The notes under the pieces are model-generated. The model was given only the letters and a program-made list of their open reading frames with translations. It was not told where the DNA came from and searched no databases. A stretch of DNA of 64,000 nucleotides from Synechococcus sp. A10-1-5-1. GTDB lineage: Bacteria > Cyanobacteriota > Cyanobacteriia > PCC-6307 > Cyanobiaceae. The stretch's first letter is position 1. Every line of letters begins with the position of its first letter. Shown here in pieces: positions 46,833-50,913 of this stretch. The stretch lies in the NCBI RefSeq assembly GCF_023115425.1, contig NZ_CP096032.1, positions 868,001 to 932,000 on the forward strand. Direction: 5' to 3'. Made by a program: the position numbers and the translations under genes.

Positions 46833-46901
46833 CGCCCCCTCAGCCAACCCCGCGTAGCCCCAAGCCATGGCGCTTTCTCGGGAACACAGGCTGAGGGGGC
46901 G
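46833..46901 (+). promoter_or_regulatory. 13-base inverted repeat spanning the rnpA start
   Basis: CGCCCCCTCAGCC (46833-46845) is the exact reverse complement of GGCTGAGGGGGCG (46889-46901). The 43-base loop contains the rnpA start region (ATG 46867) and the 3' arm is followed by TTTTGT. In RNA this could sequester rnpA initiation or act as a weak attenuator after rpmH. Confidence 0.55.
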
Positions 46902-47256
46902 TTTTGTCTTTGATCGGATCTACCAAAAGGGGCGGCGAATCCATGGGCAATGGATGGTCCTGCGGACGATGAGGGCCGAACCCCAGCTCCTGAAAGCCGA
47001 TCCAAGGGACCAAAGCCCCCTGAGCTGCCGCCTGGGTGTTGTCGTCAGTAGCAAGGTCAGCAAGCGCTCCGTTCAACGCAACCGCCTGCGCCGGCTCCTG
47101 CACGGCCATCTCAGCCGGCAACTTCCTGAAATCCCCACTCAGGGAGAGGGACTTTGGCTGCTGATCTCCCTGAAACCCGGAAGCGCGGACGCGGAAGAGC
47201 GACTCCTCCTGGGAGAATGTTGTGAACTCATTGCCAAGGCAGGACTGAGACCATGA
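46867..47256 (+). CDS. rnpA: Ribonuclease P protein component
   Basis: Basic protein subunit (129 residues) of RNase P, which matures tRNA 5' ends. The N terminus HRLRGRFVFDRIYQKGRRIHG and the RNR box KRSVQRNRLRRLLHGHL are diagnostic. A family-typical glycine-rich ending follows. Overlaps the next gene by four bases. Neighbour order rpmH-rnpA-(PH)-yidC is conserved. Confidence 0.96.
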   Translation: MALSREHRLRGRFVFDRIYQKGRRIHGQWMVLRTMRAEPQLLKADPRDQSPLSCRLGVVVSSKVSKRSVQRNRLRRLLHGHLSRQLPEIPTQGEGLWLLISLKPGSADAEERLLLGECCELIAKAGLRP

Positions 47257-47705
47257 GCGCTGCCTCCCAACCCGCTCCCGTGGCCCCGGGGGCCAGCATC
47301 AACGAAGAGGTCTTCTATGAGGGCGGGCCTGCCAAAGGAGATCTGATCAGCAACATGCTCTTCGGACTCACCCTGATCGGCCTGCCCTTTGCCGTGGGTG
47401 CTGTGGTCCGGGCCCTCTGGCTGCGCTTCCGCATCACGAGCCGACGGGTTGAGGTCACCGGCGGCTGGCTCGGCCGCGACCGCACCCAGGTGGTCTACAG
47501 CCAAATTCGTGAGGTCCGCTCGGTCTCCCGGGGCTTCGGCTTCTGGGGTGACATGGTCCTGGTGCTCAGCGATGGGATGAAGCTCGAGATGCGCGCTGTG
47601 CCCCGCTACCGCGATGCCCAAGCGTTCATCGAGGCACGGCTGAAATCCGGTCCCGCCGCCAAGAGCGCTGGCACCGCCGGTTTCGGTAGCGACGCCGCTG
47701 CCTGA
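47253..47705 (+). CDS. PH domain-containing membrane protein
   Basis: Bacterial PH-like (bPH2, formerly DUF304) protein of 150 residues. Two close hydrophobic segments (about 33-55) anchor it, then the PH fold with LRFRITSRRVEVTGGWLGRDRTQVVYSQIREVRSVSRGFGFWGDMVLVLSDG. Bacterial PH proteins are poorly understood; being fixed between rnpA and yidC suggests a role in membrane biogenesis. ATGA overlap with rnpA. Confidence 0.82.
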   Translation: MSAASQPAPVAPGASINEEVFYEGGPAKGDLISNMLFGLTLIGLPFAVGAVVRALWLRFRITSRRVEVTGGWLGRDRTQVVYSQIREVRSVSRGFGFWGDMVLVLSDGMKLEMRAVPRYRDAQAFIEARLKSGPAAKSAGTAGFGSDAAA

Positions 47706-47746: not shown

Positions 47747-48883
47747 GTGATCGGATACATCTCCGACAACCTGCTGCTGCCAATCCTGGATTTCTTCTAT
47801 GGATTGGTACCGAGCTATGGGCTCGCGATCATTGCCCTAACGGTGGTGATTCGCCTGGCTCTCTTCCCCCTGAGCGCCGGCTCGATTCGCAATGCCCGCC
47901 GCATGCGAATCGCTCAGCCGGTGATGCAAAAGCGTCAGGCCGAGATCAAAGCCAAGTACGCCAACAACCCCCAAAAGCAACAGGAGGAGCTGGGCTCCCT
48001 GATGAAGGAGTTCGGCAGCCCCCTCTCCGGCTGCCTGCCCTTGTTGGTGCAGATGCCGATCCTGTTTGCACTCTTCGCGACTTTGCGGGGATCACCGTTC
48101 GCCGATGTCCCCTACACCTTGAATCTGAAGGTGTTGCCGGCCGATCAGATCGCCGCTGTTGAGCCCAAGCCCTTCAACAGTGCCAGTCATTCCATTTTCG
48201 TGACCACGACCGATCACGTCCCCGTGATCGCCAGCCTGGAAAAGGGAACCAAGCTTGGAGTGGGTGACACCGAGACCGTCAGCCTGCACACCAAGGACGG
48301 CTCGAGCTTCTCGTCGGTGTTGAGCGGTGTCGAGAACGGTTCCTCGTTTGCCCCCACCTGGTCCGTCACCAAGGGTGAAGGGGTGGTCAGCGTGGATCAG
48401 AACGGCGCCATCCATGCCATCGCCGCTGGGGACGCCACCGTCGAGGCCAAGATCCCTGGCCTGGCAGCCCGCAGCGGCTTCCTGTTCATCAAGGCTCTGG
48501 GCCAAGTCGGCTTCTACACCGATGGCGCCATCAACTGGGATATCGCGATCCTGGTGGGCGGCTTTGGCATCACCCTCTTCCTGAGCCAGATCCTTTCGGG
48601 GATGGGCATGCCCGCTAACCCCCAACAGGCCACGGCCAACAAGATCACCCCCGTGATGATCACCGGGATGTTCCTGTTCTTCCCCTTGCCTGCTGGGGTG
48701 CTGCTTTACATGGTGATTGCCAACGTCTTCCAGGCAGTCCAGACCTTCCTGCTCACTCGTGAGGCACTGCCCGACAACCTGCAGACGATCCTCGATCAGC
48801 AAAGGGCTGCCGAAGCGAAAACCGTGACGGCGACGGTCACTGGCAGCAGTCGCATGCCGTTTGAACCCAAGGGCAAGAAATAG
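47747..48883 (+). CDS. yidC: Membrane protein insertase YidC with Ig-like insertion
   Basis: Oxa1/Alb3/YidC insertase for membrane proteins, including photosystem subunits. TM1 (about 22-42) carries the groove Arg36 (VVIRLALFP). Then come the coiled C1 region [43 protein letters not shown] (TM2), and TM3-TM5 at 264-340. Between TM2 and TM3, residues about 125-255, lies an extra lumenal/periplasmic segment. Part of it reads [31 protein letters not shown], like a Big_2 Ig-like fold. GTG start at 47747; 378 residues. Confidence 0.95.
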
Positions 48884-48886
48884 GGC

Positions 48887-49429
48887 ATGGGCGACGGCCT
48901 CCAGACCGGTGATCCGCTCATTCCAGTCCCGCTCCAGGAGCTCTCCCTTCTTGAGCAGGGCAAGCAGTGGAGGATCAATCAACGGCTCAGTGAGCTGGAA
49001 AGCCTGACTCCCGTCCGCGGACAACTACGCGCAGTCCATCGCGGCAATATTCTCGAGTTGGACGGCGAAGCCAGCACCATCGTCACCCTCTGCTGTGACC
49101 GCTGCCTCCAGCAGTTCAATCACCCCCTGAGCTTTGAAACCCACGAGGTGCTCTGGCTTGGAGAGCAGGCTAGGGAGCAGGGGATGGATCTCGAAAGCGT
49201 GCTCGAGGCGGGCGGTGCTGTGATTGAGCTCGACCCCGATGAGCTCACCGAAAGCATGGATCCCCGAGCGGATTTCGATCCCGAGCACTGGGTCTTTGAA
49301 CAACTGAATCTCCAGCTGCCGGTCGTGAATCGCTGCGGATCGGACTGTCCTGGACCCAACCTGAACGCAGCGGTCGCAGACGAACCGATCGATCCCCGCT
49401 GGGCTGCCCTGAAGAAACTGAACCCATGA
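48887..49429 (+). CDS. DUF177 (YceD) family protein
   Basis: Cytosolic protein linked in bacteria and plastids to 23S rRNA accumulation and large-subunit assembly. The DUF177 core has LDGEASTIVTLCCDRCLQQFNHPLSF and a later NRCGSDCPGPNLNAAV, giving four cysteines (CDRC, CGSDC) that may bind zinc. Acidic patch around residues 108-125. 180 residues. Start is three bases after yidC and the stop overlaps ycf46 by four bases. Confidence 0.85.
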   Translation: MGDGLQTGDPLIPVPLQELSLLEQGKQWRINQRLSELESLTPVRGQLRAVHRGNILELDGEASTIVTLCCDRCLQQFNHPLSFETHEVLWLGEQAREQGMDLESVLEAGGAVIELDPDELTESMDPRADFDPEHWVFEQLNLQLPVVNRCGSDCPGPNLNAAVADEPIDPRWAALKKLNP

Positions 49430-50913
49430 GTCAGGCCTGGGCGGACCACCTTGATCTGTTGATCCGGGCACGGACGCCCATCCTCTGGATCCGCAGCCAA
49501 GAGGAAGAACGGATCGCCAACCTGCTCAGCGACGCCGCCAAACGCCTGGATCAGCGATCCCTGGCCCGCTGGGATTTCATTAGCGGGCTCAAGGGATGGG
49601 CCGGCCGCGATGGAGAGGCTGCTCGCAATCCGTTGGGTGCCCTCGAAAGCCTCAGCGCTCTACCAGCCGAGCAGCCAGCCCTGCTGGTGCTCCATGACTT
49701 CCATCGCTACGCCGACGACAGCAGCATCTGCCGCAAGCTCCGCAACCTGGCATCGAGCCTGCGCCAACAGCCGCAAACCCTGGTGATCACAGCGGCTGAA
49801 TGGCAGCTTCCTCGGGAATTGGAGGAGTGCATCACCCTGCTGGATCTCCCCCTACCCAACCAACAGGAGATCCAGACGTTGCTGGGGAATATCGCCCAGG
49901 CAAGCGGACAGCCCATCGGCGCCGATCTGCTGGAGCTGCTGACCCACAGCTGCAGCGGACTCAGTGAACAGCGAATCCGCCAGGTCGCCGCCCGGGGCCT
50001 AGCCAGCCGGGGCCAGCTGGGAGGGGCGGACCTCGATGAGGTACTCGAAGAAAAACGCCAGGCGATCGCCCGCAGCGAACTGCTGGAGTACTGCCCAACC
50101 GAGGCCACTCCTGCAGACATCGGTGGACTGGATGCCCTTAAGCGCTGGCTCGAGCAGCGCCACATGGCCTTTAGCGATGAGGCGCGCCGCTACGGCCTGC
50201 CGCTCCCACGGGGCGTGCTGTTGGTGGGGCCCCAGGGCACCGGGAAATCACTGACGGCCAAGGCCATTGCCCATAGCTGGAGCATGCCGCTACTGCGCCT
50301 GGATGTTGGACGGCTGTTTGCCGGCCTGGTCGGCGCATCCGAAGCCCGGACCCGGGACATGATTCAACGGGCCGAAGCGATGGCACCTTGCGTGCTCTGG
50401 ATTGATGAGATCGACAAGGGCTTTGGCAGTGCCGATGGCCGCAGCGATGGGGGCACGAGCCAACGGGTGCTGGCGAGTTTGCTGACCTGGATGGCGGAGA
50501 AGAGCACCGCTGTTTTTGTCGTGGCCACCGCGAATGGTGTGGACAAACTTCCTGCGGAACTGCTTCGCAAAGGCCGCTTTGATGAGATCTTCCTGCTCGA
50601 TCTACCTGACGCCCAGGAACGCCGCACCATCCTTGATTTGCAACTCAGGCGCAGGCGCCCAGAGCATCGAATCCCCCTGGATGTCGTGGTGGATCGCACC
50701 CAGGGATTCTCCGGAGCGGAGCTCGAGCAGGTGGTGATCGAAGCGATGCACCAGGCCTTCAGCGAATCCCGTGAATTCGGTGAAGCCGACCTCAGCAGCG
50801 CAGCCGCACAACTGGTGCCCTTGTCTCGCACCGCCCGCGAACAACTGGAGCAACTGCAACAGTGGGCCAGCAGCGGCCGGGCCCGCCCCGCCTCGACACA
50901 TTGCAGCGGGTAA
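49426..50913 (+). CDS. ycf46: AAA+ ATPase, Ycf46 family
   Basis: FtsH-like AAA+ ATPase (495 residues) without a protease domain, encoded in cyanobacteria and some plastids; linked to photosynthesis or stress regulation. N-terminal domain about 1-225, then GVLLVGPQGTGKSLTAKAIAH (Walker A 268-275), Walker B LWIDEI (324-329), second region of homology with GRFDEIFLLDLPDAQERRTILD. Arginine-finger region LLRKGRFDE is present. ATGA overlap with the DUF177 gene. Confidence 0.92.
   Translation: MSQAWADHLDLLIRARTPILWIRSQEEERIANLLSDAAKRLDQRSLARWDFISGLKGWAGRDGEAARNPLGALESLSALPAEQPALLVLHDFHRYADDSSICRKLRNLASSLRQQPQTLVITAAEWQLPRELEECITLLDLPLPNQQEIQTLLGNIAQASGQPIGADLLELLTHSCSGLSEQRIRQVAARGLASRGQLGGADLDEVLEEKRQAIARSELLEYCPTEATPADIGGLDALKRWLEQRHMAFSDEARRYGLPLPRGVLLVGPQGTGKSLTAKAIAHSWSMPLLRLDVGRLFAGLVGASEARTRDMIQRAEAMAPCVLWIDEIDKGFGSADGRSDGGTSQRVLASLLTWMAEKSTAVFVVATANGVDKLPAELLRKGRFDEIFLLDLPDAQERRTILDLQLRRRRPEHRIPLDVVVDRTQGFSGAELEQVVIEAMHQAFSESREFGEADLSSAAAQLVPLSRTAREQLEQLQQWASSGRARPASTHCSG

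Follow-up and report, generated by a model that had tools for sequence, protein, structure and literature searches.

The window, i.e. the whole 64,000-nucleotide stretch of Synechococcus sp. A10-1-5-1 DNA analysed here, carries on its forward strand a yidC gene at positions 47747–48883, which is preceded by rnpA (46867–47256) and a PH-domain gene (47253–47705) and followed by a yceD-like gene (48887–49429) and a gene for an AAA ATPase (49426–50913). The gene between rnpA and yidC, which encodes a bPH_2-domain protein, is a conserved neighbour, occurring within the flanks of yidC at 71 of the 75 loci L116–L190. The yidC ORF has a GTG start and encodes a membrane protein insertase of 378 amino acids, with a five-TM core that lacks the TM1 and P1 domain of E. 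coli YidC. This assignment is based on profile matches to NF002734 (cyanobacterial YidC; E 5e-191, 634.5 bits against a cut-off of 324) and PF02096 (E 6e-36, 124.4 bits, cut-off 35), and on Foldseek and VIA matches to the YidC proteins of B. halodurans and E. coli; the five-helix core of our AF2 model overlaid the solved YidC chains 3wo7_B and 6al2_B with VIA Z values of 17.6 and 17.1 respectively. As the NF002734 match runs from profile position 4 to 379 of 384, loop included, the loop that concerns us here is already part of that family model. Insertase activity is reported in passages of PMC9764255 for the Synechocystis YidC homolog.

The AF2 model, which was built on a 63-row alignment and has a mean pLDDT of 80.5, places the TM helices of the core at residues 24–38, 92–114, 264–285, 292–311 and 316–337. 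Of these, core TM2 (residues 92–114; 48020–48088), which was delimited by DSSP on the model and by alignment with E. coli YidC, and core TM3 (residues 264–285; 48536–48601), which was delimited by DSSP, are TM3 and TM4 respectively in the numbering of the E. coli helices. In the sequence alignment with E. coli YidC, query residues 9–130 correspond to chain residues 339–458 and query residues 273–338 to 471–533, the second stretch being weak when taken alone (0.099) but in agreement with the structural alignment, and the loop between the two stretches is left out.

The preliminary description of this DNA had proposed a Big_2-type Ig-like segment at 48119–48511, which is residues 125–255 of the ORF, in the loop between TM2 and TM3 and outside the compact YidC core. 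The motifs that it quoted are present, [16 protein letters not shown] at residues 205–220 and [14 protein letters not shown] at residues 221–234, and the window protein does carry about 125 inserted residues between core TM2 and TM3, although the limit at residue 255 has to be moved. In the 13 insert-less YidCs of the phylum that we aligned, TM2 is followed by about 8–12 residues, then by an FLFI..L element and then by TM3, and the loop from GSPF to the start of TM3 measures 29–70 aa, compared with 133–160 aa in the aligned Cyanobacteriia, where the insert stands between GSPF and the FLFI element. Because the insert-less proteins carry the same element, residues 245–255 belong to the ancestral YidC loop, and the extracytoplasmic insert itself spans residues of about 119–244 (48101–48478, forward strand). 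It opens with an N-terminal beta extension outside the Big_2 match (residues 119–154; 48101–48208), with strands at 121–130 and 148–151 by DSSP on the model, and continues with the Big_2-type Ig-like core (residues about 155–239; 48209–48463), which is delimited by the VIA matches of residues 151–242 and by Pfam Big_2 in orthologs, the window protein itself being below the Pfam cut-off. A conserved junction, PGLAARSG, leads into the ancestral [11 protein letters not shown] element, and the two together occupy residues 237–256 (48455–48514). Over 58 aligned rows the mean column entropy was 0.63 bits for this junction and FLFI stretch, 1.69 for the Ig core, whose surface is variable, and 0.33 for TM2.

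The structure prediction that had been proposed as a check of the loop gave an all-beta model that overlays Ig-like chains at modest Z values (5–7). In the full AF2 model, residues 121–236 form beta-strands and short helices with block pLDDT values of 82–94, and the insert folded alone (residues 118–262) showed the same strands with a mean pLDDT of 82. When the full model was submitted to Foldseek, the YidC chains 3wo7 and 6al2 came first and a chain of Big_2-CBM56 was ranked 14th (E 0.37, probability 0.77); for the insert alone nothing scored at E≤0.001, a tail protein of phage SU10 coming closest at 4.7e-3. With VIA, 998 chains were aligned to the insert model, 237 of them at Z≥2, 16 at Z≥5 and none at Z≥8; since all of these lie below 8, in the range where common arrangements also score, the Z values alone are not decisive. 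The chains above Z 5 come from SU10, phage Douge, T5 pb6, Big_2-CBM56, LigA and the S-layer protein SbsB, and almost the same set recurred with residues 115–243 of the full model; SbsB, which scored 5.1 with the insert model, is absent from the 50 rows listed for the full model. Residues of about 151–242, which also have intimin among their neighbours, fit Big_2-CBM56 (7r3t) with Z 5.9, rmsd 2.9 and 27% identity over 71 aa, and LigA (8gyr) with Z 5.7. Taken over the solved Big_2 chains 7r3t and 7quz, the Ig-like sandwich of the predicted model overlays 68–74 residues with Z 5.5–5.9 and 23–27% identity. The MATH domain of SPOP spans the whole insert, but with Z of about 4.4 and rmsd 4.5–5.2, and was judged to be a common arrangement.

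Given these modest Z values, the reading of the fold draws support from sequence profiles, in which Big_2 passes its cut-off in orthologous loops. The window YidC itself does not reach the Pfam gathering cut-off for Big_2 (PF02368), scoring 15.4–16.9 bits against 22.8, and its domain can be named Big_2-derived only through its orthologs, not as a Pfam-level member. Three of the four early-branching Cyanobacteriia scanned did exceed the cut-off (L193, 35.7 bits; L198, 31.7; L192, 25.9), whereas the fourth (L199) and the two inserts examined from Melainabacteria gave no Big_2 hit. When 63 inserts were scanned one at a time, Big_2 led all other families, with 33 matches at E≤0.05 (best 1.2e-5) against six for the next family. 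In addition, a profile of the insert found the Hoc-like PDB chain 7x30 (E 1.6e-6 for the whole and 0.009 for the best stretch). Model, structural neighbours and ortholog profiles together support an Ig-like, Big_2-type fold for the insert, as the preliminary description had proposed from its motifs. The likeness to the Big_2 domains of Big_2-CBM56 and LigA consists of an overlay of about 70 residues at 20–27% identity and of the profile hits in orthologs; in contrast with those domains, that of YidC occurs only once, within a polytopic insertase, has an extra N-terminal beta extension and, in the window, falls below the cut-off. The usual settings of Big_2 domains are surface or phage proteins. 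Genome G409 has no Big_2 match at E≤0.001 other than its YidC insert, and the genome of the window has none at all at that threshold.

A YidC match was obtained in 383 of 386 genomes of the phylum and in 380 of 388 genomes of the class. The preliminary description had suggested alignment of YidC from other cyanobacteria, and the insert was present in all 118 loci that we checked singly (115 distinct sequences, several from Prochlorococcus), with a length of 111–127 aa; as these loci were picked among good full-length matches, they show constancy rather than provide a census, and one of them lies on a contig labelled Chloroflexaceae bacterium. The latter (L177) encodes a cyanobacterial-type YidC about 53% identical with that of the window and is probably mis-binned. 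Another contig, NZ_JAHLYT010000063.1, carries two yidC loci (L180 and L189) that lie about 15 kb from each other and point in opposite directions, a duplication or an assembly artefact. Two families among the lowest-scoring of the class (f50 and f58), presumed to be Gloeobacterales, keep the insert in a shorter form, with a loop of 136–140 aa as against about 147, so that the loop of other Cyanobacteriia is longer by about 7–11 residues. Comparison with two relatives of the same genus, at 97 and 93% identity, gave dN/dS values of 0.045 and 0.101 for residues 118–240, 0 and 0.005 for residues 1–117, and 0.010 and 0.072 for residues 241–345, indicating that the insert is constrained, but less so than the core. 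A chance match is ruled out by this constraint, together with the ortholog Big_2 scores, the 7x30 hit and the presence of the insert in every locus checked.

Outside the Cyanobacteriia, 32 YidCs of the phylum were aligned. Six (families f38 and f42) have an insert on the same side of the FLFI element as in Cyanobacteriia, another 13 (f31, f39, f40 and f41) have theirs on the opposite side, and the last 13 (f30 and f32–f37), with loops of 29–70 aa, have none. Loci resembling f38 (L112–L115) are labelled 'Candidatus Melainabacteria'. In the f38/f42 YidCs (L043–L048) the cytoplasmic C1 loop is also longer by about 12 residues, which Cyanobacteriia do not have, and in one of them (L046, genome G240) the match runs across one in-frame TAA. 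When a profile of the 118 cyanobacterial inserts was compared by hhalign with one of seven f38/f42 inserts, a score of 42.8 (E 6.8e-7) was obtained, whereas 50 column-shuffled controls reached at most 17.95. These inserts are, by their sequence profiles, homologous. The insert on the other side, which we call A-type (L049–L051, L057, L059, L060, L206 and L209–L214; 13 sequences of 117–134 aa), occurs in families presumed to be Gastranaerophilales and relatives, f31 presumably being gut Gastranaerophilales. It lies in the same YidC loop as the cyanobacterial insert, but after and not before the FLFI element and without detectable homology: hhalign scored 14.2 against shuffled controls of up to 18.7, which leaves room for a very distant relation, and the two A-type inserts scanned had no Pfam hit over cut-off.

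To place these inserts in a history, an RpoB tree was rooted with E. coli, a single distant sequence on which its root rests. Of the 30 genomes sampled, three had no RpoB match and G013, with no more than a fragment, was excluded, and in G053 an in-frame stop shortens the protein; families f33, f34 and f39 are for these reasons absent from the tree. Cyanobacteriia, f38/f42 and the A-type families formed one clade (97/92) with the sampled insert-less families f30, f32 and f35–f37 outside it, and within it f38/f42 and the A-type families were grouped together (100/99). In a tree of the YidC core (199 columns), f38/f42 instead joined the Cyanobacteriia (97/89) and not the A-type clade, but the RpoB arrangement was not rejected by the YidC core data (AU p 0.232). 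The core tree gives no support to a recent acquisition of yidC by f38/f42 from Cyanobacteriia, as it places f38/f42 outside the Cyanobacteriia clade (100/99). From these trees we infer, as the simplest history, one gain of the insert before the split of Cyanobacteriia from their sister clade, followed by a single replacement, with an ancient transfer of yidC as a possible alternative.

The carriers outside the Cyanobacteriia also bear on the age of the insert. A match to Photo_RC (photosystem II reaction centre) was found in five of five Cyanobacteriia, in one case by a fragment, but in none of nine f38/f42 genomes and in none of eight other non-Cyanobacteriia genomes, all searched as drafts that are 94–98% complete. 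For six of the nine f38/f42 genomes the alignment shows the insert directly, and the other three match YidC over its full length. As relatives among the Melainabacteria in which no Photo_RC match was found have a homologous insert, and the families branching outside have no insert of any kind, the insert is probably older than oxygenic photosynthesis in this lineage.

The best explanation of these data, and one that we hold to be reasonably probable, is a five-helix insertase core with one Big_2-derived Ig-like insert, probably gained once, that would act as a rigid module for docking and spacing. A single domain of this type with its short beta extension would have entered the first loop on the outer face, after TM2 and before the FLFI element, probably in one event that preceded the divergence of Cyanobacteriia from the non-photosynthetic sister clade. 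Held by the almost invariant junction, it would face the periplasm or lumen and most likely keep extracytoplasmic partners (translocon parts or assembly factors) or substrate loops near the exit of the groove. A lumenal placement and partners for YidC are supported by the proximity labelling and the Ycf48 co-purification cited below. Lineages with thylakoids may later have recruited the domain for factors of photosystem assembly. Against a docking role stand the variable surface of the Ig core, on which no conserved binding face is evident, and the statement in PMC13174344 that most of the P1 domain of E. coli, a different domain, can be deleted without harm.

The main rival to the docking module is a specific contact with the translocon, by which the domain would bind extracytoplasmic parts of SecDF or SecY and hold YidC beside the lateral gate, much as E. 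coli YidC uses parts of P1 with SecF. Such a role would not depend on photosynthesis, which is what the distribution calls for, and a YidC–SecF contact through P1 is reported for E. coli in the text and a reference title of PMC13174344; however, sister lineages without the insert share this insertase core and do without the domain, and we consider this reading unlikely.

Also improbable, in our estimate, is an insert that evolved as a photosystem or thylakoid assembly module, gathering lumenal photosystem factors or directing YidC to thylakoids; a related thylakoid idea for the domain appears in passages of PMC13174344. In favour of such a module, the literature presents YidC as indispensable for integrating D1 and as lying near lumenal parts of PSII (PMC9764255, PMC7880944): it was enriched with lumenal PsbU-APEX2 in Synechococcus 7002 (PMC7880944) and found in the oxygen-evolving neighbourhood of PSII (PMC9764255), and Ycf48 co-purifies with it (review PMC11449106). 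The longer loop of Cyanobacteriia other than the Gloeobacterales-like families would also fit. The preliminary description had connected the Ig-like fold with photosystem or oxidase assembly, but as the origin of the insert this is not supported, in view of the homologous insert in f38/f42, where Photo_RC was not detected, and of that in f50 and f58, the presumed Gloeobacterales, an order without thylakoids according to passages of PMC13174344. A later role of the insert in photosystem assembly may nevertheless exist.

Extending the docking module further back, one can picture a common ancestor of Cyanobacteriia and part of the Melainabacteria that built the Ig-like platform before photosynthesis, one clade then replacing the domain across the FLFI element, so that a module at this loop would have been selected repeatedly, and photosystem assembly later taking the platform over; we put this forward tentatively, as somewhat short of an even chance.

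It is very unlikely that the insert is merely a tolerated lineage-specific loop with no selected role, a stable fold kept since its loss would disturb the core. Only the C-terminal tail varies more than the insert, and on the RpoB tree the insert was seemingly replaced by another domain in one clade, as a tolerated loop might be; against this stand its presence and narrow length range in all loci checked, Prochlorococcus included, its low dN/dS and its nearly invariant junction.

The E. coli P1 domain is beta-rich and extracytoplasmic, as is the insert, and lies between TM1 and TM2, before the core. The cyanobacterial YidC, in contrast, starts at E. coli residue of about 332–339, past TM1 and P1, with VIA aligning the model to E. 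coli YidC residues 332–529 only, and its insert falls between E. coli residues 458 and 471, i.e. between TM3 and TM4, whereas P1 comes before the aligned part. Homology with the large P1 domain, which is implied where preprint PMC13174344 names the cyanobacterial domain P1, is ruled out by this position, and we give it practically no credence.

The same preprint, of 2025–26, shows that the domain is not without a published description, as had been supposed: in the passages concerned, the periplasmic domain of cyanobacterial YidC is modelled, described as conserved except in Gloeobacterales and called P1, with extra helix loops possibly related to thylakoids. What stands of the supposition is the Ig nature, as neither 'Ig-like' nor 'immunoglobulin' occurs in its main text. 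The Synechocystis protein described and modelled there, Slr1471 (NF002734/PRK02654), is of the same family over its full length, insert included; differing from our account, those passages give neither the loop in which the domain sits nor its presence in non-photosynthetic relatives. Among the matches listed in a search of openly accessible articles and few preprints, none names an Ig-like fold for YidC; in the parts of PMC5898192 and PMC8151025 concerned, YidC and Ig terms both occur, but the Ig terms refer to other proteins, and the loop terms looked for in PMC6175206 were absent. The present analysis shows a loop different from that of P1, a predicted Ig-like fold, a shortened form in presumed Gloeobacterales and occurrence in relatives with no detected PSII reaction-centre gene.

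YidC is needed for D1 insertion, and the present analysis gives a domain of its lumenal part in cyanobacteria a name, limits and a probable age. Two readings are corrected, that the domain is the P1 of E. coli and that its presence explains the origin of thylakoids. As non-photosynthetic relatives and presumed Gloeobacterales carry it, mere presence cannot explain that origin, on which at most the extra segments of the insert could bear. For the plastid relative Alb3, passages of PMC2706819 doubt a descent from cyanobacterial YidC, and the topology of Alb3 is given in PMC8733628. Finally, PMC13174344 in places calls Slr1471 a V4R-domain protein and names Slr0147 in its legends; Slr1471 is YidC, and this is probably a slip.
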